Source: Fibrobacter sp. UWH4 (GTDB taxonomy: Bacteria > Fibrobacterota > Fibrobacteria > Fibrobacterales > Fibrobacteraceae). Taken from it: a DNA stretch of 64,000 bases. Below the pieces are notes generated by a model. That model was given only the letters and a program-made list of their open reading frames with translations, had not been told where the DNA came from and did not search any database. Location of the stretch: positions 62,001 through 126,000 of the forward strand of contig NZ_FRAY01000003.1 of NCBI RefSeq assembly GCF_900142475.1, read 5' to 3'. A program made the translations under genes and the position numbers. Below are positions 24,295 through 60,185 of the stretch, in pieces (positions within the stretch are counted from its first letter, which is position 1; each line of letters opens with the position of its first letter).

Positions 24295-24461
24295 GAGGAA
24301 CTTAGCACGCTCGTTTCACTCGCTTTGAGCGATGAGGTCGCCTTGCAAGCAAGGCTCTGGGCTAAAGATGGTGCCAATGGCGCGATACTGAAAGCTCAAA
24401 GGACCGTAGGTCCGTGCTCATACCTCAAAGGGCGATGCCCGACCCCATACCTCGTAGTCTT
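24295..24461. repeat. triloop-hairpin array (family A), copy 2, between exbD and tonB
   Basis: Ordered hairpins: GCCTTG-CAAG-CAAGGC (24340-24355), GTGCC-AAT-GGCGC (24371-24383), GGACC-GTA-GGTCC (24401-24413), GGGC-GAT-GCCC (24430-24440). Spacers are CTTTGAG, GAAAGCTCAAA, GCTCATACCTCAAA and CCATACCTC. No reading frame or promoter is apparent, so the element should lie inside the operon mRNA. Confidence 0.85.
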
Positions 24462-25103
24462 ATGATTGATTTTCTCGCAAAATATTTTCGCTTCCCGCTG
24501 GCATTGGTGCTCTCCTTCGTGGTGAGTGCGGTGTTCTTCCTTGCGATTCCGGTCATCAATACGCTTTTCTTCGATAAGGGCGTCAAGACGGAAAAGGAAC
24601 TGGAATCGGTGACGGAAGTCGAGGTTCTCGTGAGCGAGAAGAAACCCGAGGTCAAGCAGAAGGTGCTGCGTACCATGATGAATCCAAACCCGTTCAAGAT
24701 TTCGGCGAATATGGGCGTGTCCCGTAGCCAGAATTTCCAAATGGATCTGTCGCTGGCGCGCGGTGCCGCCGGTGATGGCGTGGCCGTAGGGACGGGCTCG
24801 ATGGAAAATGTCGTTTACGAAGCGGGTGAGGTGGATGAACAGGCGCAGGTGTTGCGTGAAATCCAGCCGAAGTTCCCCGAAAAGGCGAAGCGTATGGGCG
24901 TTTCGGGTTATGTGAAGGTCTTGATTGTGATTGATGTGTATGGCGACGTGGCGCAGGCCCAGGTGCTGACGCAGGAGCCGCCCGGATATGGATTTGACAA
25001 CGAAGCCTTGAAGGCCGTAAGACAGTGGAAGTTCAGCCCGGCGCAGCTGGGCGGTTTCCCCGTGGCGCAGAAAGCCACAAAGGAGTTCCGCTTTGTTAAC
25101 TAG
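24462..25103 (+). CDS. tonB: TonB energy-transducing protein
   Basis: 213 residues. N-terminal inner-membrane helix (FPLALVLSFVVSAVFFLAIPVI), a short periplasmic linker without the usual long Pro-Lys spacer, and a C-terminal TonB domain (QPKFPEKAKRMGVSGYVKVLIVIDVYGDVAQAQVL...NEALKAVRQWKFSPA) that would contact the TonB box of outer-membrane receptors. The short linker is typical of TonB2-type proteins, which depend on TtpC to span the periplasm. ATG 24462 is chosen because the upstream frame runs into the hairpin repeat. No TonB-dependent receptor is encoded in this window. Confidence 0.9.
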   Translation: MIDFLAKYFRFPLALVLSFVVSAVFFLAIPVINTLFFDKGVKTEKELESVTEVEVLVSEKKPEVKQKVLRTMMNPNPFKISANMGVSRSQNFQMDLSLARGAAGDGVAVGTGSMENVVYEAGEVDEQAQVLREIQPKFPEKAKRMGVSGYVKVLIVIDVYGDVAQAQVLTQEPPGYGFDNEALKAVRQWKFSPAQLGGFPVAQKATKEFRFVN

Positions 25104-26103
25104 GGTTCGAGGTACGAGGTGTGAGGTCGCCTTGCTCGCGACCTCATTACTATTATTGATTTTTCTACCTGTATTTTCGTATGCTGCTGAAGATTATTTC
25201 TTCAAGGCGAATGAGTTGTACGACCAGGGAAAATATAAGGAAGCGGTGCCGCTGTACCGTGCGGCGATAGACGAAGGCCGCTATGAGCCCTTTGCCTGGT
25301 TCAACTTGGGAAACGCCTTGGTGCTGCTTGACCGCAAGCAGGTCGCGATGGTGGCGTACAAGCGCACCGTGGAACTTTTGCCGACGTTTGAAAAGGCCTG
25401 GATGCTCCTGGGCGATCTTTATTATTTAGGTGGTGATGTGGGCGAGGCCATAGCGGCTTATAACCGCGCCATCGAACTCGGCGTGGAATCGGACCATGTG
25501 CATTTTGCCCTTGCGGAATGTTACCTTAAGGGTCGCGACTGGACGCTTGCGCAGAAGAATTTTGAACGCGCCCTGCAACTGAATCCGGACCGAATGGATG
25601 CGTGGTACGGCCTTGCCGAAGTCTACGAAAAACTCGGTGACTATGAGTACGCCATCAAGACGCTTCAGAATGCGCTTCAGATGACGGCTACCGCAGGCGC
25701 CGATGTGCACTTTACCATGGCCTACTATTACCGCAGCATGGATTCTACGCGGCAGTCCCTGAACGAGATGGAAAACGGACTCTTGATGGATCCGGAAAAT
25801 GTTTCTGCCCGCCGCTACCTCGCGCAAATGTATGTGCAGAATAATTCTCCGTGGATGGCTATCTTTACTCTCGAAGAGGGTCTCCGTCACAATAAGGGAA
25901 AGGCGGACTTGAACCTAGATTTAGGACAAATTTACTTTACCCAGAAACGCTATGACGAAGCCTTTGATTGCTATATGAGGGCTTGGCTTGCGGGTAATTC
26001 GCAGGGGCGTATCGGCGCCGAAAATGTCGGCCACGTCTTCTCGAATGCGGGCGACACAGAAAAGGCTGAAATTCTGTACAAACGAATCCGCGAAAAGAAG
26101 TAG
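25093..26103 (+). CDS. exported TPR-repeat protein of the TonB operon
   Basis: 336 residues from TTG 25093. Signal-like segment (LLATSLLLLIFLPVFSYAA) then about eight tetratricopeptide repeats (for example ANELYDQGKYKEAVPLYRAAIDEG, AWMLLGDLYYLGGDVGEAIAAYNRAIEL, AWYGLAEVYEKLGDYEYAIKTLQNAL). TPR proteins close many TtpC-type TonB operons and probably scaffold the complex in the periplasm. It overlaps the tonB stop by 11 bases. Codons 4-18 lie in a partial hairpin repeat (GAGGTACGAGGTGTGAGGTCGC...GCGACCTCAT, 25111-25147); an alternative TTG at 25132 would start within it. Confidence 0.85.
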   Translation: MLTRVRGTRCEVALLATSLLLLIFLPVFSYAAEDYFFKANELYDQGKYKEAVPLYRAAIDEGRYEPFAWFNLGNALVLLDRKQVAMVAYKRTVELLPTFEKAWMLLGDLYYLGGDVGEAIAAYNRAIELGVESDHVHFALAECYLKGRDWTLAQKNFERALQLNPDRMDAWYGLAEVYEKLGDYEYAIKTLQNALQMTATAGADVHFTMAYYYRSMDSTRQSLNEMENGLLMDPENVSARRYLAQMYVQNNSPWMAIFTLEEGLRHNKGKADLNLDLGQIYFTQKRYDEAFDCYMRAWLAGNSQGRIGAENVGHVFSNAGDTEKAEILYKRIREKK

Positions 26104-26121
26104 CTGCGATATTATATATTC

Positions 26122-26129
26122 TATATTTG
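26122..26129 (+). promoter_or_regulatory. TAnnTTTG element before the FISUMP lipoprotein
   Basis: TATATTTG, 5 bases before ATG 26135. Leaderless spacing. Confidence 0.6.
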
Positions 26130-26134
26130 CTTGT

Positions 26135-27877
26135 ATGAAGGATTACAAGAGTTTTGTTCTGTTGTCTGCGCTTTGGGTGCTATCTGCATGTGGCGATACG
26201 GCATCTTCAAGTGTCGACGAAAGCTTTAGCCTGAAATCGCCTACAGAAAGTATCGAGGCTCCGATTAAGGATGCGAGGGATAATCGCATTTATTATTCAA
26301 CCCAAATCGGAACCCAAGTCTGGCTTGAAGAAAACTTGCAGTACCAGGCGGAATCTAGCGGATGCTATGATGATGCGGATTCTAATTGCGTAAGATTTGG
26401 CCGTTTGTACACCGGTGGGCTGGAGGGACTCTGTCCCGAAAAGTTCCATATTCCCACTGAAGACGAGTGGAATGAACTGATAGGCTATGTCTCGGTTGTT
26501 CGACCGGATCAAGAACCCGCTAAAAGTTTGAAATCTTATTCCTGGTATCCGGGAACAGGTCTTTTCTCGTTTAATCTTCTTGGAGGGGGGTATCGCTGGC
26601 TGGATGGTTCTTACCGTAAACTTTATGAAGAATCCTATTTGGCGACATCGCGACCTGGTTGTTATTTACAGTTTTTACCGGGAAAGGACTATGGCTTTGT
26701 CTGCGAGGACTCCATTGCGGGGTTCTCGGTGCGTTGCCTGATGGATTCGACCAATGCAAAAGATGTATTGCCTTCTTGCGGGTCGTCGAATAAATATGAA
26801 ATCGTTCACGAAGGAAATGGCTATTATGTCTGCGACGAGAAGGGCTGGCGCCCTGCTAACAAGGCTGAGTACAGCGCTTACGGCAATAAGTGCGTCAATG
26901 GGGTTGTTGTCGAAGGGAAATTTTATCAGGACCACTATTACGATCGGTATATCTGCGATGGTGGCTTATGGAGAGAAGCAACCGAAGTGGAACGCAATAC
27001 TTACGGAAATGACTGCGTTGCGGGAAGTTCCAAAATTATTCAGGGACTTGTTGAAGATTTTAAGTATTTCGTTTGCACGGATTCCGGATTCCGCAGGACG
27101 ACGATGTGGGATTTCCCGAAAGCGGATTATTTGAACCCATCTGTGGAGTACGGAACGTTTGTTGATGCCCGCGACCAAAAAAGCTACAAGACGGTTTCTT
27201 TGGGCTCGCAGGTATGGATGGCTGAAAACTTGAATTACTCGGATAGCATTAGTTCTCCCAATCTGAAGGGAAACAGCTGGTGCTATGAGGACAATCCGTC
27301 GAATTGTGAAAAGGTGGGACGTTACTACACTTTTCTCGCGGCAATGAATTTGGATGCATCTTTTGCGGCAGACAGTGTTGAATATCCACTGATGGAAATC
27401 AATCAGGGAATTTGCCCTGACGGGTGGCGAATCCCTTCTGAAGAGGACTGGAATGCTCTCGTAAATTACATTCTACCAACCTATGGAAAGGAGGCTAATG
27501 CTTGGTGGACGTCATCGATAACTGGTGATGTCACACCGAATGATTACTATACGTTCCCCTATGCGATGAAGTCGGTTACAGGGTGGAATTTTGATTCATG
27601 GACGGAGCCGGCTAATGCGTCTGGTTTTTCATCTATTCCTATGGGACATAGGACTGAAGAAGGATCCTTTGTCGAAGTCGGTGAAAGCGATGGTTTCTGG
27701 TTGGCTTCAATCCATAAGTCGCAAACCTTTATCGCGGGGGCTCCGGCGGGAATGGATGTTGCTAGCTTGAAATATGCTCCCATTGCCTCTGATATGAGGT
27801 CTTGGGAGCTTAACGGCTGGAACTTTAATTTGAGAACCCGGAAGTCCGGATATCCTATTCGTTGCGTCAAGAATTAG
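26135..27877 (+). CDS. FISUMP lipoprotein with two Fibrobacter major paralogous domains
   Basis: 580 residues. Lipobox LSAC (Cys19). Domain 1 (about 44-210) opens with KDARDNRIYYSTQIGTQVWLEENL, includes FGRLYTGG and LCPEKFHIPTEDEWNELIGYV, and ends SVRCL. Domain 2 (about 340-580) opens VDARDQKSYKTVSLGSQVWMAENL, has GICPDGWRIPSEEDWNALV and ends PIRCVKN. Between them are three copies of a small cysteine motif (YYVCDEKGWRPAN, RYICDGGLWREAT, YFVCTDSGFRRTT). FISUMP domains (TIGR02145) are abundant in Fibrobacter and some are linked to cellulose binding; their fold resembles SUMF1/C-type-lectin proteins by my reading of the G-W-x-I-P and RC motifs. Function here is unknown beyond envelope location. 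Confidence 0.85.
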   Translation: MKDYKSFVLLSALWVLSACGDTASSSVDESFSLKSPTESIEAPIKDARDNRIYYSTQIGTQVWLEENLQYQAESSGCYDDADSNCVRFGRLYTGGLEGLCPEKFHIPTEDEWNELIGYVSVVRPDQEPAKSLKSYSWYPGTGLFSFNLLGGGYRWLDGSYRKLYEESYLATSRPGCYLQFLPGKDYGFVCEDSIAGFSVRCLMDSTNAKDVLPSCGSSNKYEIVHEGNGYYVCDEKGWRPANKAEYSAYGNKCVNGVVVEGKFYQDHYYDRYICDGGLWREATEVERNTYGNDCVAGSSKIIQGLVEDFKYFVCTDSGFRRTTMWDFPKADYLNPSVEYGTFVDARDQKSYKTVSLGSQVWMAENLNYSDSISSPNLKGNSWCYEDNPSNCEKVGRYYTFLAAMNLDASFAADSVEYPLMEINQGICPDGWRIPSEEDWNALVNYILPTYGKEANAWWTSSITGDVTPNDYYTFPYAMKSVTGWNFDSWTEPANASGFSSIPMGHRTEEGSFVEVGESDGFWLASIHKSQTFIAGAPAGMDVASLKYAPIASDMRSWELNGWNFNLRTRKSGYPIRCVKN

Positions 27878-27934
27878 CAAGGTGTCGCGGCTTTGAATCG
27901 GTCCGCGACTTACACAGATTGTTTGAGAAAAGAA

Positions 27935-27962
27935 AAAAGGCACGGAATAATCCGCGCCTTTT
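27935..27962. terminator. bidirectional terminator between FISUMP lipoprotein and GH2 gene
   Basis: AAAAGGC-A-CGGA / TCCG-C-GCCTTTT with an ATAA loop: an 11-bp stem with one A-C mismatch, flanked by A-run and T-run, so it can act on both convergent transcripts. Confidence 0.85.
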
Positions 27963-27983
27963 CTAATGTTTGTCTTTGCCGAA

Positions 27984-30836
27984 TTACAGCAGGTTCACGA
28001 TCGTTGCGAACAAGTTGTCTGCCAGCGGGTTCGTTTCGAGGCCTTCGAATACGTTGAACTGGTTGAACATGATCTTGCCCTTGCCGAACGGGTAGAGCTG
28101 CAGGTCTGCACCGGTCTTGACTTCGCCTTCTTTCAGCGTGACGGAGCGGGCGAATACGGTTGCTTCGGGGAGTTCGTTCAGCGAGATGCTTGGCATGATG
28201 GCCGCCGCATTGTGGTCGAGAACGTGAGCTTCGCCAAAGACCGGGGCGAGTGCGGAACCCTTGGGCAGGTAGTGCAGGCTGAGTTCGTTTGCACCGGTGC
28301 TCCAGTGAGATTCAATGTTGCAATCGAACTGGTGACTCTGGTTCAGGTAGTCAATGTCTTCCTGGGTGAGGTCCGAAAGCAGGAGCGTCTTGCCGCCGTT
28401 CTTCACGACGTCCACGAGCTTGTCGAGGATTTCGTCGGGCCAAGAACTCAGGTTAGCCGTAAAGATAATCTGTTCGGGGCCGGTGAGGGCGGCGAGGGCG
28501 TCGCTCGATTCTTCGCTGTTGTCAAGGAAGCAGACCTTCTTCATGGCGCTCTTGACGTCGGCTTCGGCGATAACGATCAAGTCCTCGTAGGAAGTGTGGA
28601 TTTCCTTGCCGTCGTTCTTGAGCGTAATCTGCAACTGGTACTTGCCTTCGTTGCGGGGTGCCATGGTCGTGTAGATGCCCATCTGCGTAAGGCTGGTCTT
28701 GCCTGCGGCTTCTTCCGGAGAAATCTTGTCGCAGGAAATTTCCTTGCCATTTTCGTCAATCAGTCGGATTTCGACGGATACGTCTTCGTAACGGCTGTTG
28801 TTCAGGAGCGTTACCTGGAAGCTGACTTCGCTCTGCGGAGCGACGACGTGTTCAAGTTCACTGACGAGAGCGCGACTCGGGGTCGTGATTTCCTTGATGA
28901 AACTGTCGAAGCCCTTGCTCACGCGGTTTTCGTCGCACAGGCCGTAGAAGTCCGTGCCGCAGTCTGCCCACTGGTCCAGGAAGAAACCGGCGATTTGCGG
29001 GTTGCTCTGGAAGGCGGTAATCTGGTCGAGCTTGCTCTTCAGCGCGATGCGGTTTGCGTCGGCGATAAAGCTCTTGTAGTCCTTCCAGATAGAAAGGTCG
29101 CTTTCGACGAACGTTTCGACAGCTTTGATGAAGGTCTTGATGTTCTTTTGTGCCTTGCCGCTGCGCGGACCTGCGATGTTTGTCGCGTTGGCGGGCAGAA
29201 GCGTGTGGTTCTTCAAGGTCACGAGCATCTTGTTGTTGATGTCGCTTGCCACGTTTTCTTCTTCGTCCTGGAAGTGGCTGTCGCCGAGGCCCGTATCGGG
29301 AACGGACAGCGGTTCTTCGGCGTCGCGGTCGAAGCTGTGGGCGAGGTAGTGGCTGTAGGCCGCGTTCGGTGTCATGCGCGGGTTCACGCGGAGCGTCGCG
29401 TAGGTAGAAATCTTATCGACCGAGACGGGCAGGAGCTTGCCGGTATCCTTGCGGAAGTTGCCTTCGTTGTCGAGGTAGATGCTGTTCAGGTTGCTGATGA
29501 CCGGACGCGTCATGTCGACGGGGCTGATGGCGTTCAGGAGCTTGTTACCGTTCTGCAACAGGAGCGTGCCGTTTTCGGCGCCCATGACCCAGATGCCGAT
29601 GCAGGGGTGGTGGTGCTGTTCTTCGACGATGTCGTTGATCAGCTTCTTCACGATTTCGAGACCCTGCGGGGTAGACCTCATGGTGTGGATGGGGAATTCC
29701 TGGAAAACAATCAGGCCAATCTTGTCGCAGATGTTGAGTGCTTCTTCGGGAAGCGGTGCGCCGCAGGAACGGATGGCGTTGAAGCCTGCATTCTTGACTG
29801 CCAGCAGGTCCTTTTCGAGCTTCGGGTTGTTGAGTGTCCAGAGGCCGCCTTCGCTCCACTGCTGGTTGTAGGAGATGCCCTGGATCTTCAGAATTTGGTC
29901 GTTCAGGTAGTAGTCACCCTTGAGGCAGTCGAACTTGCGGAAACCGAAGGTGCGTACGACCGGGAACGCGTATTCGGCGCGCTTGATTTCCTTGCCGTCC
30001 TTTTCCTTGCCGGCCTTGATTTCCAGCTGGAATTCGATGGCGTAAAGGTTCGGGTGTTCAAGGCTCCACTGGAACTTGTGACGCTGCTGTTCCTTGACTT
30101 CGAACACGAAGCGTTGCGTCATGTTTTCCTTGTCGAGCTTGATGTTGTCCACGAAGTGCTCGTACACGTCGCCGTCGGGATTCTTCATCAGGACGCGGAG
30201 TCTGGTCTGGTAGTTGCGCGGGTTGTTGAAGCTGATGTCGCAGGCGATTCGCTGGGTGTCCGCGTCGGGTTCGAGGCGCACGTCAGAAATAAAGGCGGTC
30301 GTGCCAAGAATCAGGTCCACGTGACCGAAAATGCCGCCAAACGGGTATTGCTGCCACGGGAGGCCAACCGGCATTTCACTCGGGTGGGCATAGCGGTCGT
30401 CGGCGCCGTCTTCGCTTTCGCGGCCGAAGTCGATACGGCCGTTGGTGGTACCCATGTTCGCGACACGGATGCAAAGGATGTTCTCTTCGCCGATTTTCAG
30501 GGCTTTCTGCGGTTCAATGATAAAGGGAGTGTAGGCTCCGAAATGAGTTCCGAGGAGCTTGCCGTTAAGCCATACGGTTGCGTGCGTTGCAATTCGTTCA
30601 AAACGGAGGAAAATACGCTTGGTGACTTGTTTTTCGTCTTCGATAGTGAAACGCTTGAAATAGAAGGCGCAATCTTGCGACATTAGGAGCTTGTCAAAGG
30701 CTTTTTCCCAGATATGTGGAACTTGTACAGTTTCTGTATCCTGGGGATAGGTGGCATACCAACGGTTGGAAATGCCGGCATCTTCAGTGTCCCACTTCAT
30801 CTGCCAGTCGCCGTCAAGGCTCAAAATCTTGCTCAT
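27984..30836 (-). CDS. glycoside hydrolase family 2 protein (beta-galactosidase/mannosidase-like)
   Basis: 950 residues, no signal peptide, so probably cytoplasmic and acting on imported oligosaccharides. Jelly-roll domain at the N-terminus (SLDGDWQMKWD, VQVPHIWEKA, FYFKRFTI, VWLNGKLLGTHFGAYTPF), immunoglobulin-like middle, TIM barrel with NDQILKIQGISYNQQW, FNAIRSCGAPLPEEALNICDKIGLIVFQEFPI, and IGIWVMGAEN where E421 occupies the acid/base position (usually W-x-x-G-N-E). A barrel strand GFFLDQWADCG follows, but I could not find the usual nucleophile motif (S/T-E-Y/F-G). C-terminal extra domains (about 640-950) include a glutamine-amidotransferase-like beta-alpha region (DALAALTGPEQIIFTANL, GGKTLLLSD). 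Start has AAAGGACA on the - strand (30842-30849) and TATCTTTT promoter (30865-30872). Confidence 0.85.
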   Translation of the reverse strand: MSKILSLDGDWQMKWDTEDAGISNRWYATYPQDTETVQVPHIWEKAFDKLLMSQDCAFYFKRFTIEDEKQVTKRIFLRFERIATHATVWLNGKLLGTHFGAYTPFIIEPQKALKIGEENILCIRVANMGTTNGRIDFGRESEDGADDRYAHPSEMPVGLPWQQYPFGGIFGHVDLILGTTAFISDVRLEPDADTQRIACDISFNNPRNYQTRLRVLMKNPDGDVYEHFVDNIKLDKENMTQRFVFEVKEQQRHKFQWSLEHPNLYAIEFQLEIKAGKEKDGKEIKRAEYAFPVVRTFGFRKFDCLKGDYYLNDQILKIQGISYNQQWSEGGLWTLNNPKLEKDLLAVKNAGFNAIRSCGAPLPEEALNICDKIGLIVFQEFPIHTMRSTPQGLEIVKKLINDIVEEQHHHPCIGIWVMGAENGTLLLQNGNKLLNAISPVDMTRPVISNLNSIYLDNEGNFRKDTGKLLPVSVDKISTYATLRVNPRMTPNAAYSHYLAHSFDRDAEEPLSVPDTGLGDSHFQDEEENVASDINNKMLVTLKNHTLLPANATNIAGPRSGKAQKNIKTFIKAVETFVESDLSIWKDYKSFIADANRIALKSKLDQITAFQSNPQIAGFFLDQWADCGTDFYGLCDENRVSKGFDSFIKEITTPSRALVSELEHVVAPQSEVSFQVTLLNNSRYEDVSVEIRLIDENGKEISCDKISPEEAAGKTSLTQMGIYTTMAPRNEGKYQLQITLKNDGKEIHTSYEDLIVIAEADVKSAMKKVCFLDNSEESSDALAALTGPEQIIFTANLSSWPDEILDKLVDVVKNGGKTLLLSDLTQEDIDYLNQSHQFDCNIESHWSTGANELSLHYLPKGSALAPVFGEAHVLDHNAAAIMPSISLNELPEATVFARSVTLKEGEVKTGADLQLYPFGKGKIMFNQFNVFEGLETNPLADNLFATIVNLL

Positions 30837-30872: not shown

Positions 30873-30879
30873 GAAAAAG

Positions 30880-30990
30880 TGATTAGTGGTTAGTGGTTAG
30901 TGGTTAGAACTTAGAGCTTAGAAAAGCTTGTTTTTGGTGCTTGCCAAAGGGCCAACAAAGTTCTATTAACTAAGTTCTACCAACTATTTT
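30880..30990. repeat. TTAGTGG triplet and TAGAACTTAG repeat (family F), copy 2
   Basis: GATTAGTGGTTAGTGGTTAGTGG (three tandem units), then AGAACTTAGAGCTTAGAA (30904-30921), AACAAAGTTCTA and ACTAAGTTCTACCAAC (30969-30984). The last is the exact reverse complement of a segment at 20529-20544. Confidence 0.65.
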
Positions 30991-31551: not shown

Positions 31552-31554
31552 TCC

Positions 31555-31874: not shown

Positions 31875-31921
31875 CCCGCTACTGCCTACTGTCTACTGCC
31901 TACTGTCTACTTCCTACTACT
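31875..31921. repeat. TACTGTCTACTGCC simple repeat
   Basis: Tandem degenerate TACTG(C/T)CTAC units (ctactgcctactgtctactgcctactgtctacttcctac). A related TAGACTGTAGACGG text occurs at 8314-8330. It sits just before the promoter-like TATTTTAT (31931-31938) of the next gene. Confidence 0.6.
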
Positions 31922-42555: not shown

Positions 42556-45653
<3,098 letters not shown>

Positions 45654-51000: not shown

Positions 51001-52457
51001 GTGTTTCCGTGAAGCTCGTATCCGAAGTAGGTGTGGGCACGATTGCCGCAGGTGTGGCGAAGGCCCATGCCGACGTGGTGCTGATTTCCGGTCACGATGG
51101 CGGTACGGGTGCATCTCCGCTGACATCCATCAAGCATGCCGGCCTCCCGTGGGAACTGGGCATTGCCGAAGCGGAACAGACGCTGGTGCTGAACGATTTG
51201 CGCGGGCGCATCAAGCTCCAGGTGGATGGCCAGCTCAAGACGGGCCGCGACGTGGTGGTGGCCGCCCTCCTCGGTGCCGAAGAGTTCGGATTTGCGACGA
51301 ACCTTCTCGTGAGCCTTGGCTGCGTGATGGACCGCAAGTGCCATACGAACCAGTGCCCCATGGGTATCGCTACGCAGGATCCTGAATACCGCAAGCGTTT
51401 TGCGGGCAAGCCCGAATACGTGGAAAACTTCCTCTACTTCATTGCCGACGAAGTTCGCGAGATTCTCGCAAGCCTTGGCCTGCGCTCGTTGGCGGAAGCC
51501 TGCGGCCGTAGCGATTTGCTGGAACGGGACGAGGCGATTGCCTTCTACAAGGCGCACAACCTGGACTTCTCCAAGATTTTCGAAACTGTTGATGGCGGTA
51601 TAAAGTCCTTCGACAAGAACTTCGTGAAGGAACCGCTTGAAAACTTCGACCGTCGTGAACTCCTGCCGTTTGTGGTCGACACTCTCAAGAGTGGCGCTTC
51701 GGTGGAACTTTGCACGGTGGTGCACAACGTTGACCGTACGGTGGGTACGGAACTTTCCGGCGAGGTGGATGAACACTTCGGTGTGAAGGGCCTCCCCGAA
51801 GATACCATCAAGATTCACCTGCAGGGTGTCGCGGGCCAGAGCTTCGGTGCATTCCTCGCTCCGGGTATCACTCTCGATTTGCAGGGCGAAGCCAACGATT
51901 TTATGGGCAAGGGTCTTTCGGGCGGTAAGATTATCGTGCGCCCGCCTAGCAATGCAAGCTTCAAGGCCGAAGACAACGTGATTGCGGGTAACGTCATCGG
52001 TTACGGCGGAACCTCGGGCAAGATTTTCATCAACGGCCTCGCGGGCGAACGCTTCGGCATCCGCAACTCGGGCATGCTTCTGGTCAGCGAAGGCGTGGGT
52101 GACCACGGCTGCGAATACATGACTGGCGGTCGCGTTGTAGTGCTTGGTCGCGTGGGCGTGAATTTCGCCGCAGGTATGACAGGTGGCTTTGCCTATGTCT
52201 ATGATGAGACGGGGCATTTTGACCTGAGCTGCAACGTGGATTCCGCCGACCTGGAAAGCGTACTTCCGGGCACCGAGAGCGAAAGCGAACTGCTCGATAT
52301 CATCAAGCAGCACGTGGAGGCGACTGGCAGCGAGAAGGGCAAGCGCATTCTCGAGAACTGGAATAGCGAACGTCCGAAGTTCGTGAAGATTTTCCCGGTG
52401 GATTACAGGAACGCACTTTTGAAAGGAGGTGAGCGCGCCTTGCAAGCAAGGCTTTGA
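48015..52457 (+). CDS. gltB: glutamate synthase large subunit
   Basis: 1480 residues. Glutamine + 2-oxoglutarate + 2 e- to 2 glutamate. Class II amidotransferase domain with nucleophile Cys16 in DACGVG (a 15-residue propeptide is presumably removed), HQRYSTNTFPTWPLAHPFRYLAHNGEINT; central domain; FMN-binding synthase domain with GEGGEDPDRD, SVKLVSEVGVGTIAAGVAKAHAD, SGHDGGTGASP; 3Fe-4S ligands Cys1103, Cys1109, Cys1114 (CVMDRKCHTNQC); C-terminal GXGXG beta-helix. The last residues (ERALQARL) and the stop codon come from a hairpin array. ATG 48015 with AAGGA at 48004-48008; ATG/TTG 47964 lies upstream of the sigma-54 start site. Ammonium scavenging under nitrogen limitation, with GltD. Confidence 0.96.
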   Translation: MNAQALYDPANEHDACGVGLVANINNVASHQIVLQGITVLKRLMHRGAAGGDPETGDGAGLLLSMPHKFFRKVNPELPARYGVAMSFVDNTLDADAFDAKIKEIAAAEGVKVLNFREVPVNPEKIGRTARETLPHIRQVFFDGTAFENDGAFDIKLYVVRRLMEKACNGLYVCSCSRRSIVYKGLLLASQIEGFYKDLNDLDFESPIALVHQRYSTNTFPTWPLAHPFRYLAHNGEINTLRGNLNSLRAREPHLKSEIIGDDLQKLLPLVPAGQSDSASLDNMFELLVAAGRSLPHAMMMLMPQAWGKKHYLGRDVRGFFEYESMLMEPWDGPAAVAFSDGVNAGAILDRNGLRPARYTLCKDGLFVMASETGVLDLRDDEVEEKGRLKPGEIIYLDLENHRILKNAEMKAQVARAKPYRRWVAENKMSVRGLFSEINPSDVPDDILVQQKRFGYSAEDLSIILQPMAKNGAEPIGSMGNDAALAVLSDKPQPLFNYFKQLFAQVTNPPIDPIREELVMSLTTYIGNHGNILEETPEQAHLIKIPRPIVSEDEIRRFENIGDKAFKAKVLKMQFPLGGDGSVLEAALQNLAGDAVRAVQDNYDIIVLSDKNIDWGYVPIPSLLATACVNRALVEAGVRPEIGLIVQSGEVREVMHFALLLGYGATVINPYLAFESITNMCHNGDLDVDPVTAAANYVKAVDKGLLKIMSKMGISTLRSYRSAQIFEAVGLNRELIEKFLPGTASRIEGIGLEEIAREVGERQKIAFADASKVLQSGGQYAFRKEGEKHLWTPQSLAAFRQAVQGGDYEKFKVYSKLINDQSERQATLRGLFKFKAATPIDISEVESRESIVKHFVAGAMSLGSLSPEAHETIAIAMNRIGAMSNCGEGGEDPDRDTPAPNGDIRSSAIRQVASGRFGVTIDYLRHAKDLQIKMAQGAKPGEGGQLPAHKVNEFVARIRHSIPNVSLISPPPHHDIYSIEDLAQLIYDLRNANPKARVSVKLVSEVGVGTIAAGVAKAHADVVLISGHDGGTGASPLTSIKHAGLPWELGIAEAEQTLVLNDLRGRIKLQVDGQLKTGRDVVVAALLGAEEFGFATNLLVSLGCVMDRKCHTNQCPMGIATQDPEYRKRFAGKPEYVENFLYFIADEVREILASLGLRSLAEACGRSDLLERDEAIAFYKAHNLDFSKIFETVDGGIKSFDKNFVKEPLENFDRRELLPFVVDTLKSGASVELCTVVHNVDRTVGTELSGEVDEHFGVKGLPEDTIKIHLQGVAGQSFGAFLAPGITLDLQGEANDFMGKGLSGGKIIVRPPSNASFKAEDNVIAGNVIGYGGTSGKIFINGLAGERFGIRNSGMLLVSEGVGDHGCEYMTGGRVVVLGRVGVNFAAGMTGGFAYVYDETGHFDLSCNVDSADLESVLPGTESESELLDIIKQHVEATGSEKGKRILENWNSERPKFVKIFPVDYRNALLKGGERALQARL

Positions 52458-52590
52458 GGGATGAGCTCGCTCCCTTCGGTCGCTTTGAGTAATGGTTTGG
52501 CGCCTTTGGCGCGATTATAATACTCAAAGTGCCCCTGTGGGGCACGACCCCATACCTCAAAGGCGTGTAACGCCGACCTCATAGCTTTTA
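52428..52590. repeat. triloop-hairpin array (family A), copy 4, between gltB and gltD
   Basis: GCCTTG-CAAG-CAAGGC (52437-52452), GCGCC-TTT-GGCGC (52500-52512), TGCCCC-TGT-GGGGCA (52530-52544), GGCGT-GTA-ACGCC (52562-52574). Spacers: CTTTGAG, ATACTCAAAG, CCATACCTCAAAG, GACCTCATAG. The gltB stop TGA lies inside the first spacer. Confidence 0.88.
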
Positions 52591-53962: not shown

Positions 53963-53983
53963 AAAAAAGTATCTTGACTCCAC

Positions 53984-54138: not shown

Positions 54139-54146
54139 GGCGCATT

Positions 54147-55379
54147 ATGGAAGAAGTCGTAATCACTGGTATGGGGTGTGTTTCCGCCCTCGGCAATACG
54201 CCGGAACTCCTTTGGAACAACCTGCTGGAAGGTAAATCCGGACTCGCAACGATCGATCGCTTCGACGTGACCAACTATCCGATCAAGATAGCTGCCGCCG
54301 TCAAGGAATTCGATGGTTCTGAATTTATTTCCCCGCGCGATTCGTCCCGCCTCTCTAGGTGCATCCAGTACGCTGTGTATGCTTCTTTCCAGGCTCTTAA
54401 GAACGCCGGTATTTCTCCTGAAAACGAAGATCCGACCCGTTCTGGCGTGATTATCGGTTCCGGTATCGGCGGTATGCAGATCTATAGCGATTCCGTCGTT
54501 TCGCTTTCGAACCGTGGCCCGAGCCGCGTGTCCCCGTTCTTCATTCCGATGTCTATCGTGAACATGCCCGCTGGTGAAGTTTCCAACCGCACCGGCTGGA
54601 TGGGCCCCTGCTACGCAGTGGTTTCCGCATGCGCAACCTCTAACCACTCTATCGCCGCCGCCTACGACCAAATCCGCTTGGGCCGCGCCGATATCATGCT
54701 CGCCGGTGGTACCGACGAAACCGTGAACAATGTCGCTCTCGCTGGCTTTACCTCTATGAAGGCCTTGAGCAAGCGCAACGACGATCCGACGACGGCATCC
54801 CGCCCGTTCGATAAGGACCGCGACGGTTTCGTGATCGGTGAAGGTTCTGGCATTCTCGTTCTCGAAAGCCTTACGCACGCTAAGAAGCGTGGCGCCAACA
54901 TTCTCGCTCGCGTGGCTGGTATCGGCGTGAGCGCTGATGCTCACCATATGTCTGCTCCGCGTGAAGACGGCGAAGGCGTCCGCCTCGCTATCGAAATGGC
55001 TCTCCGCGAAGCCGGTATTTCCCCGAAGGATGTGGGCTACGTGAACACCCACGGTACTTCGACTCCGCTCGGCGACGTTGCTGAATGCTCCGCACTCGAA
55101 AAGGTCTTTGCCGGCGCCACCGACAGCCTCAAGGTGAACTCTTCCAAGTGCATGATCGGCCACGCTCTCGGCGCCGCCGGTGCTCTCGAAGCCATCATCA
55201 CCGTGAAGTCCTTGCAGAATCAGATGATTCACGCGACCACGAACGTGTTCAACCAGGACGAACGCATCCACCTCGATGTGTGCGCCAACAAGAACACCAG
55301 CCACTCGTTCAACTACGCCATGTCCGACAGCTTCGGCTTCGGTGGCCAGAACAGCGTGCTGCTCCTCGGCCGCAACTAG
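54147..55379 (+). CDS. fabF: 3-oxoacyl-[acyl-carrier-protein] synthase II
   Basis: 410 residues. Condenses malonyl-ACP with acyl-ACP in fatty-acid elongation. Catalytic triad in view: Cys162 in VVSACATS, His302 in NTHGTSTPLGD, His339 in KCMIGHALGAAGA (with Lys334). The N-terminus VVITGMGCVSALGN and GSGIGGMQ are typical. Residues around the nucleophile read SACATS where most FabF have TACATG/A. Highly biased codons suggest strong expression. No other fab gene is adjacent. Terminator follows. Confidence 0.94.
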   Translation: MEEVVITGMGCVSALGNTPELLWNNLLEGKSGLATIDRFDVTNYPIKIAAAVKEFDGSEFISPRDSSRLSRCIQYAVYASFQALKNAGISPENEDPTRSGVIIGSGIGGMQIYSDSVVSLSNRGPSRVSPFFIPMSIVNMPAGEVSNRTGWMGPCYAVVSACATSNHSIAAAYDQIRLGRADIMLAGGTDETVNNVALAGFTSMKALSKRNDDPTTASRPFDKDRDGFVIGEGSGILVLESLTHAKKRGANILARVAGIGVSADAHHMSAPREDGEGVRLAIEMALREAGISPKDVGYVNTHGTSTPLGDVAECSALEKVFAGATDSLKVNSSKCMIGHALGAAGALEAIITVKSLQNQMIHATTNVFNQDERIHLDVCANKNTSHSFNYAMSDSFGFGGQNSVLLLGRN

Positions 55380-55402
55380 TCGCATCCCACATTCCACATT
55401 TA

Positions 55403-55442
55403 CAAAAGCCTTCTGGAGATTGTCCTCCGGGGGCTTTTTTAT
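55403..55442 (+). terminator. terminator after fabF
   Basis: AAAAGCCTTC...GGGGGCTTTTTT with an inner GGAG/CTCC pair; imperfect stem followed by TTTTTTATA. Similar in sequence to the gdhA terminator. Confidence 0.75.
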
Positions 55443-55500
55443 ATTCTATAACGATTGTTATGTCGGCTGTAATGGGTATACAAACTTTTAAAGGCGGAAA

Positions 55501-56505
55501 ATGATTTGTCCAAAATGCAATCGAAAATATGAAGACGATATGCCCCGTTGTCTGTGGTGTGACGCTTTGAATCCGAATTACGGTAAGGCCCCGTCATTGC
55601 AGAAGAAAAAAAAGAATGTTAAAAAAAGAGAAATTTTTGATGATGAATCTTTTGAAGACGGAACAATCTTTAAATTAGAAACCGACAAGTTTGTTGTAAA
55701 CGTTATGGCGATCCTCTATATGGTAAGCCTTATGATATTGGGCGTAGTAGCATGGTGCATGATAGAAGAGAAAGGCTTTCTGTGGTTCTTTTTCGTGCCG
55801 ATGGAACTTTTTTTGGCGTTCTTTGTTTATACTTTCTCAAAGAAAGTTTTGAAAGTAAAATGGCTCAAAGATAAATTTGTATTGGTTACGCGCTATGGGA
55901 AAAAGGAATTCTTGTTAGGTAAACAGGCAATCTATAAGTCTGAAATAACGAATTTTGGAAATCATTACCTAATTTTCAAAAAAGGATGGCAAACATTTCG
56001 ACTAGATGAAAGTGACTACCCAAAGGTTGTGAAAAAGATAATCAAAAATCAAAGTGAATTAACTGAAAAAAACATAAAATGTGATGAAAAAGGAGACGAA
56101 CAAGTCGTTTATTATCCGATGGCAACTTCTGGAGGAAAGCCTCTAATCTTTGTAGAATTTTTTTGTTCGCTAATTTTATTAATTCTAATTTTTTTGAAAA
56201 TTCCTGAAAGAGATGGATATTCTCCGGCAATATGTTTTCTGATTGCATCATTTGGCTTTTTTCGTGCTTATATTCATTCCTTGGCAATACTTGAGATAAA
56301 GTGGTTTAAAAACGGTTTTGTCCTTAGAAATCATTATGGAGAAAGAACTTTTTTCTTTGATGAAACCATCCCATATAAAAAGGAAACAGATAAAAATGGA
56401 ATTGTTCGATTTGTTTTCAAAAAAGGATTTCAATTATTTGTAGTGAATGAGCTTGATTTTCCTGAAATTGTAAAAAAAATGAAGATACTTTATAATGTAG
56501 ACTGA
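55501..56505 (+). CDS. zinc-ribbon membrane protein with an internal duplication
   Basis: 334 residues. N-terminal zinc ribbon MICPKCNRKYEDDMPRCLWC (C-x2-C ... C-x2-C), a lysine-rich linker, then two similar halves: each has two membrane helices (VVNVMAILYMVSLMILGVVAW, FVPMELFLAFFVYTF; and LIFVEFFCSLILLILIFL, ICFLIASFGFFRAYI) followed by a PH-like cytosolic unit (VKWLKDKFVLVTRYGKKEFLLG...IFKKGWQTFRLDESDYPKVVKKI; IKWFKNGFVLRNHYGERTFFF...VFKKGFQLFVVNELDFPEIVKKM). AT-rich and Lys-rich, unlike neighbours. GGCGGAAA just upstream is a weak ribosome-binding site. No named family; a membrane sensor or scaffold is only a guess. Confidence 0.65.
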   Translation: MICPKCNRKYEDDMPRCLWCDALNPNYGKAPSLQKKKKNVKKREIFDDESFEDGTIFKLETDKFVVNVMAILYMVSLMILGVVAWCMIEEKGFLWFFFVPMELFLAFFVYTFSKKVLKVKWLKDKFVLVTRYGKKEFLLGKQAIYKSEITNFGNHYLIFKKGWQTFRLDESDYPKVVKKIIKNQSELTEKNIKCDEKGDEQVVYYPMATSGGKPLIFVEFFCSLILLILIFLKIPERDGYSPAICFLIASFGFFRAYIHSLAILEIKWFKNGFVLRNHYGERTFFFDETIPYKKETDKNGIVRFVFKKGFQLFVVNELDFPEIVKKMKILYNVD

Positions 56506-56593
56506 TGTAGAGAGCCTTGATGAGTTGAATGACACAAGTAATTAAAAAGCCCTCAATTTAGTCCGCAAATTAATTAGTCTGCCTGTTTTTTTC

Positions 56594-56601
56594 TATCTTT
56601 G
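56594..56601 (+). promoter_or_regulatory. TAnnTTTG promoter element with leaderless GTG
   Basis: TTTTTTTCTATCTTTGTCCCC; TATCTTTG ends 5 bases before GTG 56607. Confidence 0.65.
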
Positions 56602-56606
56602 TCCCC

Positions 56607-57533
56607 GTGAAATTTTTTCGTTCCCTATCGATTGCGCTGGTGACGCTCCTGTTTGCAAGCATTTCCTTGCAGGCCGCCCCTTACGATCCGCCGACCTGGC
56701 GCGATTCTACGTGGGATTACCGCAGCGAAGACCCCGGTGATACGACCGAGCTTTCGATTGCCAAGGGCGTGGGCGTGGCCTCGACGGTCCTGATTGCCTA
56801 CGGTGCAGCCTACTGGCTCGTTTTCCACAAGGGATGGTGGGACGAACAGGGGAACGATTTCCATTTCGAGAATGACTTTGACTATGCCCTGAACCTGGAC
56901 AAGCTCGGACATTTCGCTTCGGGTGTCATGATGGGCGAAACCTTCTACGAGGCTTACCGTTGGGCGGGAATTTCCGAGTTCAACTCTTACCTTTTTGCGG
57001 GACTTTCTGCTTTTGCGACGCATGTGGCGATTGATGTGAAGGACGGCTTTGCGCCCAAGTGGGGCTTTAGCGTTTTCGACGTATTGTCGGGTACCTTGGG
57101 AGGCTTTCTGCCTATGGCAGAGCGCTATGTTCCCGTGTTCAAGTATGTGGATCTCAAGTGGAGTTACTGGATCAATTCCAAGGCGTATTACAGACAAAGT
57201 GATACGGGCGTGTTTACGGATGATTACTGCAATCAGACCTTCTGGGCTTCGTTCAAGGTTTATCGCCTGTTGCCGAAGGCCGCCCGTGCGTATTATCCGA
57301 GCTGGCTTGCCCTGGCGGCGGGTCTCAGTATCGACGAGGGCGTGTTTACGGGGGATCCGCACCCGCATCGTGAAGTCTATATTGCGCTGGATTACGACCT
57401 GGAAGCTTTCCGCCCGCAGAGCCGTATGGCGCGCACCATCGTGAAGTACCTGAATTACTTCAAGCTGCCGGCCCCGACCGTGCAAGTTTATCCCGAATTC
57501 CACTGGTATTTGCTGTACCCGATTAAGTTCTGA
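56607..57533 (+). CDS. DUF2279-like exported protein
   Basis: 308 residues from GTG 56607 (MKFFRSLSIALVTLLFASISLQA signal). A hydrophobic segment (GVASTVLIAYGAAYWLVF) and the pattern NLDKLGHFASGVMMGETFYEAYRW ... HVAIDVKDGFAPKWGFSVFDVLSGTLGGFLP match DUF2279/YfiM-type proteins (conserved D-K-x-x-H and K-D/E-x2-D...D-x2-N/S-x2-G). The C-terminal third (SWLALAAGLSIDEGVFTGDPHPHREVYIALDYDLEA...FHWYLLYPIKF) has the strands of an outer-membrane-associated protein. Function unknown. The GTG start is supported by the promoter spacing; no ATG lies before the signal core. Confidence 0.65.
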   Translation: MKFFRSLSIALVTLLFASISLQAAPYDPPTWRDSTWDYRSEDPGDTTELSIAKGVGVASTVLIAYGAAYWLVFHKGWWDEQGNDFHFENDFDYALNLDKLGHFASGVMMGETFYEAYRWAGISEFNSYLFAGLSAFATHVAIDVKDGFAPKWGFSVFDVLSGTLGGFLPMAERYVPVFKYVDLKWSYWINSKAYYRQSDTGVFTDDYCNQTFWASFKVYRLLPKAARAYYPSWLALAAGLSIDEGVFTGDPHPHREVYIALDYDLEAFRPQSRMARTIVKYLNYFKLPAPTVQVYPEFHWYLLYPIKF

Positions 57534-57699
57534 GTTCGGAATTCGGATTTCAGATTTCAGATTTCAGATTTGTATAAACTTCAAATGCTTGCCTAAATTA
57601 TAGGTTCGCAAGTAACTGTACAATGTTCGGCTTACTTATTTGTAGGAGTTATATCCTACTTATAACACTCCGAATTCAGAATTCTGAATTCTGAATTTC
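57534..57699. repeat. family C repeats and a short palindrome before ribE
   Basis: GTTCGGAATTCGGATTTCAGATTTCAGATTTCAG (57534-57568) and CCGAATTCAGAATTCTGAATTCTGAATTTC (57670-57699) flank a region holding GTAGGA-GTTATA-TCCTAC (57642-57659). No RFN (FMN riboswitch) consensus is present despite the riboflavin genes downstream. Confidence 0.6.
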
Positions 57700-57707
57700 T
57701 ATATTTG
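57700..57707 (+). promoter_or_regulatory. TAnnTTTG promoter element of the riboflavin operon
   Basis: TTCTATATTTGTGCCGTATG; TATATTTG ends 6 bases before ATG 57714. Confidence 0.65.
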
Positions 57708-57713
57708 TGCCGT

Positions 57714-58313
57714 ATGTTTACGGGAATTATTCAATCTACCGGTGAAATCGTTTCTATCGAAAGTAGGGGCGATGCGCTTACCATGCGCCTTAAGTCACCG
57801 GGCTTTTTTAAAAATTGTAAGTTGGGCGACAGTGTCGCCAACGACGGTGTTTGTCTTTCCATTGAATCTTGCACCGATGACGAAGCTACTTTCTGCCTGA
57901 TGCACCAGACAGTCGAAAACACGGCTTTTAAGCAGGCCGCTGTCGGCAAGTTGGTGAATCTGGAACTTCCGTGCCGTGCAGACAGCTTTATGGGCGGTCA
58001 CTTTGTGATGGGCCATGTGGACTGCATTACCGAAGTCATCAAGGTGACTCCGCGTGAAACGGGTGTGGAAGTGGATTTGAAACTTCCGGCGGATTTGCGT
58101 CGCTACGTGATTCGCCGCGGTTCGATTTCGCTCAACGGAATCAGCCTGACGGTCGCTGAAAAGTTCGAAGATTCCATTCGCGTGTGTATTATCCCTGAAA
58201 CCTTGGCCCGCACGAACCTGCGCAACTGGGTTCCGGGAACCATCGTGAATGTGGAAGTCGACATGCTCGGCAAGTATATTGAAAATTATCTGAAGGAACG
58301 TGACCTTGCTTAA
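57714..58313 (+). CDS. ribE: riboflavin synthase (alpha subunit)
   Basis: 199 residues. Dismutates two 6,7-dimethyl-8-ribityllumazine molecules to riboflavin. Two lumazine-binding repeats: [17 protein letters not shown]...[13 protein letters not shown] (residues 1-95) and [19 protein letters not shown]...[12 protein letters not shown] (96-190). ATG 57714 gives the canonical MFTGII start; TTG 57705 overlaps the promoter. The next gene begins inside its 3' end. Confidence 0.95.
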
Positions 58314-59559
58314 TACCATTGAAGAGGCCATCGAAGATTTTAAGAACGGCAAGTTTTTGATTGTGGTCGACGACGAAGACCGCGAAAACGAAGGCGACTT
58401 TGTCATCGCTGCCGAAAAGATTACGCCCGAAAAGGTGAACTTCATGCTTCACGAAGGTCGTGGCGTGCTTTGCGCACCGCTCCCGATTAAGCGTTGCCAT
58501 GAACTGAACCTCACGCGGCAGACCGCCGAGAATACCTCGATTCTCGGGACTCCGTTTACCATCATGGTCGATAAAATTGAAGGCTGCACCACGGGTGTAT
58601 CCGCTCACGACCGTGCGGCGACGATTCTAGCGCTTTCGGACCCGAATTCCAAGCCCAGCGACTTTGGGCGGCCGGGGCATATTTCGCCCCTGTACGCCCA
58701 GGAAGAGGGCGTACTCCGTCGCGCAGGCCATACTGAAGCCGCAGTCGATCTCGCAAAGCTTGCTGGACTAAGACCTGCAGCCGCCCTTATCGAAATCATG
58801 AACGAAGACGGCACCATGGCTCGCATGCCGCAACTTCAGGAAGTGGCGAAGAAGTTTAACCTCAAGATTATCTCGATCCACGACCTCATCGATTACCGCC
58901 TGAAAAATGAAAAGCTCGTGCAGCGCGTAGCCGCTCCGCATGTGCAGACCAAGTACGGTGATTTTACCGCTTACGCTTACCGCAGCAAGACCGATGGCGT
59001 AGAACATGTGGCCTGGGTTGCCGGAAACCCCGACTTCAGCAAGCCGGTTTACGTGCGCGTTCATAGCGAATGCCTTACGGGCGATATCTTTGGCAGTCTT
59101 CGCTGCGACTGCGGCGAACAGCTGGCCGCCGCCATGAAGTTCATCGGCGAGCACGGCGGCGTGTTCCTTTACATGCGCGGCCAGGAAGGCCGTGGAATCG
59201 GTCTTTGCAACAAGCTCCGCGCCTACGAGTTGCAAGAAAAGGGCATGGACACGGTCGAAGCGAACCTGCACCTTGGGTTCAAGTCGGACCTGCGTCAGTA
59301 CGGTACGGGCGCCCAGATTTTGGCAGACCTCGGCGTCAAGGAAATGCGTCTCTTGACGAATAACCCGAGCAAGATTTCGGGCATTACGGCTTATGGCCTT
59401 AAGATTGTGGAACGCGTGCCAATCGAAATCAAGCCGAACAAGGAAAACCTGTTCTACCTGCTCACGAAGCAGAAAAAGATGGGGCACCAGCTGCATGTCG
59501 ATGAAGCTGCCGGTGCTGCAGGCATTGCGTCCCAAGAGAATTTGAAAGAGGAAAAATAA
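58300..59559 (+). CDS. ribBA: bifunctional DHBP synthase / GTP cyclohydrolase II
   Basis: 419 residues. N-terminal RibB domain (about 1-205) makes 3,4-dihydroxy-2-butanone 4-phosphate from ribulose 5-phosphate: [47 protein letters not shown]-terminal RibA domain opens [27 protein letters not shown] (zinc cysteines), [41 protein letters not shown]. Start is GTG 58300 or, better spaced from AAGGA (58293-58297), TTG 58306; both overlap the ribE end by at least 8 bases, so translation is coupled. Confidence 0.95.
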
Positions 59560-60024
59560 ATGGTGAACGAAATCAAGAATTCCCTCAATGGTAGTGGCCT
59601 CAAGGTGGCAATCGCCGTTGCCCGCTTTAACGAGGTCGTGACGGACAAGCTCCTGGAAGGGGCCGTGCGTCAGCTGGAACTTCTCGGCGTTGCCGACAAG
59701 GATATCACCGTCGCGCATGTGCCTGGCGCATTCGAACTTCCGGGCGTGTGCCGTCGCCTCGCTGACAGCGGCAAGTACAGTGCCGTGATGGCGCTCGGCG
59801 CCGTGATTCGCGGCGAGACCAGCCACTACGACGTGGTAGTAAACGCTTCTACCGGCGGTATCGCAAACATCGCCGCCGAAGGCAAGCTCCCCGTGATTCT
59901 TGGAATCCTCACCACCGACACCGTGGACCAGGCGATGAACCGTGCAGGCCTCAAGGCCGGCAACCTCGGCGCAAGCTGGGCATCCACCGCCGTCGAAATG
60001 GCAAATTTGTATAAAGAGGTATGA
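59560..60024 (+). CDS. ribH: 6,7-dimethyl-8-ribityllumazine synthase
   Basis: 154 residues. Condenses the RibA- and RibB-derived precursors; forms icosahedral or pentameric shells. Motifs VAIAVARFNEVVTDKLLEGA, VPGAFELPGVCRRLADSGKYSAVMALGAVIRGETSHYDVV, GILTTDTVDQAMNRAG. Starts one base after ribBA (TAAATGG context) with GAGGAAAAATAA as ribosome-binding site. Its last codons (GAGGTA TGA) are the first bases of a hairpin array. Confidence 0.96.
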   Translation: MVNEIKNSLNGSGLKVAIAVARFNEVVTDKLLEGAVRQLELLGVADKDITVAHVPGAFELPGVCRRLADSGKYSAVMALGAVIRGETSHYDVVVNASTGGIANIAAEGKLPVILGILTTDTVDQAMNRAGLKAGNLGASWASTAVEMANLYKEV

Positions 60025-60185
60025 GTAATGAGCGATGAGGACGCCTTGCTAAGCAAGGCTTTGAGCTAAAGAATGGCGCCTGCGGCGCGATTAAAATGAA
60101 CTCAAAGGGAACCACAGGCGACCGTGCTCAAACCTCAAAGCGACCGTAGGGCGCGACCTCATACCTGAAACCTTAAACCTGAAAC
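60018..60185. repeat. triloop-hairpin array (family A), copy 5, between ribH and nusB
   Basis: Opens GAGGTATGAG and closes CTCATACCTG, complementary ends. Hairpins GCCTTGC-TAA-GCAAGGC (60043-60059), GCGCC-TGC-GGCGC (60076-60088) and an imperfect GCGACC-GTA-GGGCGC (60140-60154). Spacers CTTTGAG, ATGAACTCAAAG, GTGCTCAAACCTCAAAG. Ends with CTGAAACCTTAAACCTGAAACCTGA, a simple repeat. Confidence 0.85.

Follow-up and report, generated by a model that had tools for sequence, protein, structure and literature searches.

Inverted arrays of heptameric repeats carry nested, variable mini-hairpins in gene gaps of Fibrobacter

Four gaps between genes in a 64,000-nucleotide stretch of the Fibrobacter sp. 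UWH4 genome (contig NZ_FRAY01000003.1, positions 62,001 to 126,000; here called the window) hold repetitive sequences rich in short hairpins. Direct reading of these sequences revealed, in 4/4 gaps, inverted arrays of degenerate 7-bp repeats (CTCATAC/CTCAAAG) with the hairpins set between the repeats. The hairpin stems vary between copies, and pairing is kept. The arrays are a variant of the heptameric repeats of bacteria, of the type called short tandemly repeated repetitive sequences (STRRs), and the nested hairpin cassettes are the new part. On balance, we cautiously favor the interpretation that the arrays are dispersed non-coding DNA repeats of gene gaps, a Fibrobacter branch of the STRR-type repeats whose built-in mini-hairpin cassettes would be maintained by the DNA-level mechanism outlined below. 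The function of heptameric repeats is called unknown in the papers cited here, and with the Fibrobacter arrays this poorly understood class gains an unusual variant. In this variant the carrier heptamers hold a built-in marker, a hairpin with a free stem and with biases in the loop, the closing pair and the type of mismatch, so that how the repeats are copied and whether selection acts on DNA or on RNA become testable, by sequence and in culture.

Stems vary between copies and pairing is kept

The repeat unit spans about 29-33 bases and consists of CTCAAAG, a short hairpin and then CGACCTCATAC, which runs into the next CTCAAAG; it can be written as CTCAAA-G[stem]-loop-[stem']C-GACCTCATAC. On the side of the upstream gene, the units run in reverse (GTATGAGGTCG-hairpin-CTTTGAG), and the gap is thus an inverted repeat around a core. 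Read on either strand, these head-to-head units place the G-rich arm first and the C-rich arm last.

Copies were collected with a search pattern that does not require pairing and fixes two anchors only (CTCAAAG N{10,18} GACCTCA). The pattern gave up to 87 matches per genome, compared with 0-1 for a reversed control pattern in the same six genomes. Among 97 distinct inserts, Watson-Crick pairs were found at 463/545 facing positions, whereas exchanging 3´ arms between inserts of equal length gave a mean of 322 (standard deviation (sd) 11, maximum 359 in 2000 trials). A larger set from the genus, with 146 distinct inserts, paired at 699/825 facing positions (85%) against a swapped mean of 462 (56%; sd 13, maximum 506); by the hairpin rule of this analysis, 130 of these inserts, which we call words, fold and 16 do not. 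The claim of the initial annotation that the stems change and still pair is thus strongly confirmed, and a covariation score points the same way. For 51 aligned 26-base modules, the covariation score was 0.738, compared with 0.161 (sd 0.025) in shuffles and at most 0.178 in slid versions; one of the five pairs in this alignment is invariant, and its G sits in the search anchor. Covariation alone, even when very strong, is no proof of a functional RNA. Unpaired copies elsewhere had been named as an observation that would count against the proposal. Sixteen pattern matches from genomes of other families pair at 22/99 positions (22%), not above their own arm-swapped mean of 26.

Loops, closing pairs and mismatches point to DNA mini-hairpins

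The 130 folded words favor particular tips. The loop is GNA in 53 and GNNA in 11 (N being any base), and the inverted forms TNC and TNNC occur in 4 and 0, respectively; in a further 60 words the three- or four-base loop is of another kind, and in 2 the loop is longer. A C-G pair closes the loop in 114/130. Mismatches at facing positions are G.A or A.G in 77/108 cases, and tandem 5´-GA/3´-AG is found in 36 words, compared with 0 for the reverse order. In gaps outside these families, by comparison, 48/176 triloop hairpins of 5 bp or more close with C-G, and 41/176 have GNA or TNC loops.

Mini-hairpin DNA with a GNA or GNNA loop and at least two G-C pairs has been described as extraordinarily stable, with GCGAAGC melting at 78 C (PMC4686876; the papers cited here are represented by excerpts, to which our statements about them apply). 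The smallest Fibrobacter modules are GCGAAGC, GCGTAGC, GCGCAGC and GCAAAGC, the first three of which fall in the published GNA/GNNA class, and 64/130 folded words have a GNA or GNNA loop, whose stability as DNA is predicted, whereas 66 do not. The loop rule, the G-C pairs and the minimal sequence are common to both systems, but the motif stabilizes synthetic DNA in the published work and is a genomic repeat cassette here.

The loop motif is tied to the strand of the module. Counted on the CTCAAAG strand, GNA/GNNA loops are present in 13/27 transcript-sense and 13/18 antisense modules of co-directional gaps and in 9/17 modules of convergent gaps, with TNC/TNNC in 0 of all three groups. The transcript reads GNA in the downstream arm and TNC in the upstream arm, and since the two arms show opposite loops in the transcript, selection on RNA loops fails to explain the motif. 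The GNA/GNNA loops, the C-G closing, the tandem G.A mismatches and the link to module strand together point to single-stranded DNA mini-hairpins.

The arrays belong with the heptameric repeats of gene gaps

The genome that holds the window comprises 3.70 Mb in 22 contigs. In a background sample of 400 kb, with our own gene calls and 214 gaps of 40-1000 bases, period-7 runs were found in 28/214 gaps, compared with 0.20 expected from dinucleotide shuffles; periods 5, 6, 8, 9, 10 and 11 occurred in 0, 0, 0, 0, 1 and 0 of the same gaps. A stricter test gave 335 period-7 runs per Mb of gap versus 2.9 per Mb of coding sequence. Several unrelated heptamer types are represented (TTCGGAA, AGTGGTT, AGTAGAC, GAACTTA, AATGTGT and CTCATAC), and across all heptamer families seen the G-rich arm lies to the left and the C-rich arm to the right in 31/33 runs, regardless of gene orientation. 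The CTCAAAG modules fit this polarity in 42/45 cases in co-directional gaps and in 17/17 in convergent gaps. Given the dominance of period 7 in the gaps, we group the arrays with the heptameric repeats of cyanobacteria and Xanthomonas. The hairpins break up the series of heptamers, and for this reason array 4 (ribH-nusB gap) is the only one of the four to register as a period-7 run itself.

Arrays occupy about 43-44 gaps of the sampled genome, and called genes contain 8/75 CTCAAAG modules. The suggestion that the arrays would be enriched between co-directional genes found little backing (30/44 array gaps versus 130/214 gaps, P=0.20). Divergent gaps, on the other hand, are under-used (4/44 array gaps versus 47/214 gaps, P=0.02), and of these four, L299 appears to be a chance match.

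The initial annotation knew of no RNA family or repeat family built in this way. For RNA this stands, as Rfam gave 0 matches at or above the gathering threshold in the window and 0 at E<=1 around array 4; for repeats it does not, as the 7-bp backbone and the polarity match published heptameric repeats (PMC2670836, PMC4692102). A literature search of titles and abstract starts that paired Fibrobacter with repeat terms found no paper on these arrays or on nested hairpin cassettes, and a plasmid search with a 44-base heptamer query gave no match. Cyanobacterial STRRs usually have 7-bp units, form hairpins between genes and have no known function (PMC2670836). Like the Fibrobacter arrays, they are tandem, hairpin-capable units of gene gaps that also lie between the genes of an operon (hupS-hupL). 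By description, which is the basis of this comparison, they differ in belonging to another phylum, and nested variable mini-hairpins are unmentioned in the excerpts of that paper.

The G-rich heptamers GGGAATC and GGGGA(C/T)T of Xanthomonas and Nostoc have the same polarity and are under-represented in divergent gaps, with 70 and 75 cases of close inverted pairs in two Xanthomonas genomes and few in Nostoc (PMC4692102). They resemble the arrays described here in their period of 7, in their inverted pairs and in varying in length and sequence between relatives. However, they form G-quadruplexes from G tracts, whereas the CTCATAC/CTCAAAG units carry hairpin cassettes and contain no GGG tract. 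In addition, most sites are common to two Xanthomonas species (PMC4692102), while few are shared among Fibrobacter relatives. The TAACTGA heptanucleotide repeats of Beggiatoaceae are mostly direct and located upstream of start codons, with no hairpin cassettes mentioned in the excerpts of the paper, which also states, by citation, that in most of the bacterial genomes surveyed no class of long simple repeats is more common than heptamers (PMC4679880).

Arrays and modules turn over between relatives

Counts of the sequence CTCATACCTCAAAG, one mismatch being allowed, range from 0 to 85 per genome across 61 genomes of the genus, which are of varied completeness, and 54/61 have at least one copy. 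The strict module was matched in 54/120 genomes of the phylum. High counts are confined to the genus (0 to 58 per genome) and to G141, a genome from another genus of the same family (28 matches). Counts elsewhere in the phylum run from 0 to 3 per genome, and the 16 matches listed for other families are the unpaired ones described above.

For each of the sites of arrays 2-4, we compared 30 loci, one from the window genome and 29 from relatives chosen as the best protein matches among the 61 genomes. By the criteria of this analysis, the ribH-nusB gap has a CTCAAAG array in 2 loci, another heptamer array in 9 and none in 19. The corresponding numbers are 2, 4 and 24 for the gltB-gltD gap, and 5, 6 and 17 for the exbD-tonB gap, where 2 loci were not classed. 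Empty sites exist among the relatives. One of the ribH-nusB loci scored as having none, L187, holds an array remnant.

Turnover also involves whole modules. In two other species, with 40 loci each, 13 loci were paired, and some of these differ by whole modules together with the hairpin word (L345/L384, L352/L396). Within one genome, 87 modules share 44 words, the commonest of which is used 15 times. These whole-module differences and recurring words indicate that words are copied between sites and do not only drift base by base at each site. The initial annotation had tied the arrays to operons whose products are needed in fixed ratios. This is not supported, given that a clear CTCAAAG array is present in only 1, 1 and 4 of the 29 relatives for ribH-nusB, gltB-gltD and exbD-tonB, respectively, that modules come and go as units and that loops follow the DNA module. 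We rejected the operon-ratio idea, as the same gaps are mostly empty or have other arrays in the relatives examined.

An unrelated repeat family follows the same hairpin rule

Two other repeats in the same genome, TCATTGCGA..GAAGCAATC and GTCATCCTG..GGATCC, have fixed flanks and a variable self-complementary center, a rule that was measured for the former and only seen for the latter. The TCATTGCGA..GAAGCAATC repeat has 56 copies in the genome, with 42 distinct centers that pair at 144/193 positions, compared with 107 (sd 5.5) when arms are swapped. Among the 38 centers that fold, 21 have GNA loops and 0 have TNC loops, and tandem GA/AG mismatches number 17 versus 0 for the reversed order. This family is carried by at least 120 stretches from a viral collection. 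In 120 of these contigs, 106 distinct centers pair at 354/562 positions versus 265 (sd 9) with swapped arms; 65/106 fold, with 21 GNA loops and 1 TNC loop, and the commonest center is GCGAAGC (26/177 matches). Five words are common to the TCATTGCGA..GAAGCAATC and CTCAAAG families. A literature search by sequence pieces found no paper on the TCATTGCGA..GAAGCAATC family among the 15 of 153 matches listed.

The recurrence of the same rule in an unrelated family makes a property of the DNA likelier than a property of these operons. It is tempting to speculate that a general bacterial process, perhaps with its own enzyme, rewrites the tips of dispersed repeats into new self-complementary GNA/GNNA mini-hairpins with the flanks left intact, across unrelated families (CTCAAAG, TCATTGCGA..GAAGCAATC and, apparently, GTCATCCTG..GGATCC), but we regard so broad a process as quite doubtful. 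If true, the process would, for TCATTGCGA..GAAGCAATC, also act in the viral-collection contigs, which do not necessarily come from Fibrobacter.

A DNA-level mechanism and its alternatives

We suggest that the hairpins could act while the DNA is single-stranded, as in repair, recombination or synthesis of the lagging strand, a state in which loops of this kind would be exceptionally stable. When the polymerase stalls and slips between heptamers, and when copies recombine or serve in template switching, units might multiply, stems might be re-perfected and words might be shuffled. In this model, the arrays would be tolerated mainly away from promoters, after the stop codon, and any effect on the mRNA would be secondary and not gene-specific. 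Template switching between arms has been reported to homogenize the arms and to invert the spacer (PMC8604942).

Several observations weigh against this DNA-level mechanism. Spacer inversion is reported for template switching, yet inverted loops are rare in the arrays (4 versus 53). Unrestricted template switching by itself is therefore at odds with the data, and the low number of such loops indicates that simple inversion either seldom happens or is not tolerated. No mobilizing enzyme was identified for the arrays, and 66/130 folded words carry loops other than GNA/GNNA. That the hairpins matter as single-stranded DNA is a reading of sequence patterns, not an observation. The upstream arm may also have a role as RNA. 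UNCG tetraloops are stable in RNA, and C-GNA-G can read as UNCG on the opposite strand provided that a second C-G pair follows the first. This holds for 32/64 GNA/GNNA words and makes such a role possible. Finally, shared modules are at least as identical as the nearest 100-base flanks in 13/15 comparisons, 11 of them at 100%, which could mean selection. The result is biased, because a module was counted only if it fitted the search pattern in each of the two genomes; the L361/L397 comparison (0.571) appears to be misaligned, and 5/20 pairs have no shared module. With this bias from the pattern requirement, strong conservation was rejected as proof of function.

A possible, if unlikely, alternative is that the arrays are a neutral mutational by-product, with heptamer slippage and quasipalindrome template switching making and repairing hairpins in the absence of selection on structure. 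Whole units are gained and lost, hairpins can be created and maintained by template switching (PMC8794818), and in 120 contigs (1.07 Mb) chosen for another repeat, period-7 runs number 19 and period-14 runs 13, with every other period from 3 to 13 at 6 or fewer. A purely neutral origin nevertheless needs an extra preference to predict the GNA/GNNA loops, the C-G closing (114/130) and the near absence of inverted loops.

It is unlikely, in our view, that the arrays are cis-acting mRNA structures between cistrons that determine how stable the transcript is, where its decay halts or how the translation of operon genes is uncoupled. A role of this kind has been proposed for cyanobacterial STRRs, with mention of transcript stability or translational coupling (PMC2670836). 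The position of the arrays between stop and start codons, their compensatory stems, arms able to pair and the under-use of divergent, promoter-containing gaps all suit such a role. Array gaps also fold slightly better than other gaps, with a mean z of -2.89 for the 38 array gaps, out of 44, that span 60-420 bases (60 shuffles per gap) versus -2.28 for 126 other gaps (90-300 bases, 30 shuffles each). On the whole, however, their folding resembles that of other gaps: z is below -4 in 10/38 versus 28/126, and long-range pairing of the outer thirds is predicted in 23/38 versus 76/126. Folding of an entire gap into a single multibranch RNA, as the initial annotation suggested, is therefore unexceptional. 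The same operons lack an array in most relatives examined, the loop motif differs between the two arms of the transcript and Rfam gave no match. An RNA element was rejected on the last of these points and on folding only slightly above that of other gaps. The initial annotation had left open whether kept pairing is the mark of selection for structure or of a copying process that makes inverted repeats; the structure is indeed kept, but the idea of a new RNA structure that serves operons with fixed product ratios is unsupported.

Repetitive extragenic palindromic (REP) sequences and bacterial interspersed mosaic elements (BIMEs) are intergenic, palindromic, mosaic and dispersed, with fixed stems. 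A related explanation, which we consider improbable, is that the arrays are REP-like elements or miniature inverted-repeat transposable elements (MITEs), moved in trans by a hairpin-recognizing transposase. The arrays resemble such an element in their conserved flanks with a hairpin, in their inverted ends and in being patchily distributed, with many copies in some genomes. The Fibrobacter stems, in contrast, vary freely, with 146 distinct inserts, and the genome gave 0 matches to the Y1 transposase/REP-associated tyrosine transposase (RAYT) domain (PF01797), for which a control search was positive in 5/14 genomes; a RAYT-driven REP was rejected on this ground. Transcription terminators or insulators between genes are very improbable. 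A terminator-like hairpin in 6/9 convergent array gaps speaks for them, but only 5/27 co-directional ones have such a hairpin, and the arrays, where seen, flank terminator-like cores instead of forming them.

The four arrays and other repeats in the window

The four gaps had been described as sharing one plan. Arrays are present in all of them, and the inner plan (CTTTGAG, hairpin, core hairpin, CTCAAAG, hairpin, CTCAAAG, hairpin) is kept in copies 2-4. Copy 1 is loose and lacks the CCTTG/CAAGG hairpin, and the outer ends are looser than described, with the end GAGGTATGAG exact in copy 4 only. Arrays and modules were located by sequence, and flanking genes by Pfam matches and, for array 1, open reading frames (ORFs).

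Array 1 (16889-17051, minus strand) is flanked by two minus-strand genes, a helicase gene (14207-16888) and a gene that has no Pfam match (17052-17516), and has a minus-strand module with the insert GCGACCCATTAGGGGAGC (16898-16928). Array 2 (24295-24461, plus strand), between exbD and tonB, has plus-strand modules with the hairpins GGACC-GTA-GGTCC (24395-24420) and GGGC-GAT-GCCC (24424-24447). Array 3 (52428-52590, plus strand), between gltB and gltD, combines an upstream-arm module on the minus strand, GCGACC-GAA-GGGAGC with tandem G.A mismatches (52462-52489), with plus-strand modules that have the hairpins GTGCCCC-TGT-GGGGCAC (52523-52552) and GGCGT-GTA-ACGCC (52556-52581). The gltB ORF runs into array 3 and ends at the first CTTTGA. 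The end of GltB is altered by the array at locus L203 relative to relatives such as L224-L226, with reading into the repeat adding a short tail. Array 4 (60018-60185, plus strand), between ribH and nusB, includes the ribH stop codon in one of its repeats. Its upstream-arm module carries the hairpin GCCTTGC-TTA-GCAAGGC (60036-60065, minus strand), and the plus strand has a module with the poorly paired insert GGGAACCACAGGCGACC (60101-60130), a module with the insert GCGACCGTAGGGCGC (60134-60161) and a plain, C-rich heptamer tail (CCTGAAA/CCTTAAA; 60155-60192).

Heptamer arrays of other sequence families are found in window gaps at 14152-14187, 30873-30923, 31875-31921, 57534-57576 and 57665-57702. 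The TCATTGCGA-[hairpin]-GAAGCAATC repeat has copies at 15213-15243 (minus strand) and 15342-15368 (plus strand), both inside the helicase ORF 14207-16888, and at 44342-44366 (plus strand) within the ORF 42556-45003. The helicase ORF stays open and in frame through its two opposite copies.

In the gltB-gltD gap of other species (L204, L227), a different heptamer family (AGTAGAC/ACTTCCT) surrounds a core hairpin that resembles the one in CTCAAAG arrays and that, in L204, reads GGCGGC-TTT-GCCGC followed by GATTAT. Judging from these sequences, core hairpins may be common to different heptamer families. Two exbD-tonB gaps (L237, L239) have a lone GGGC-GTA-GCCC mini-hairpin between the stop and start codons, without heptamers, and its first base is the last base of the stop codon.

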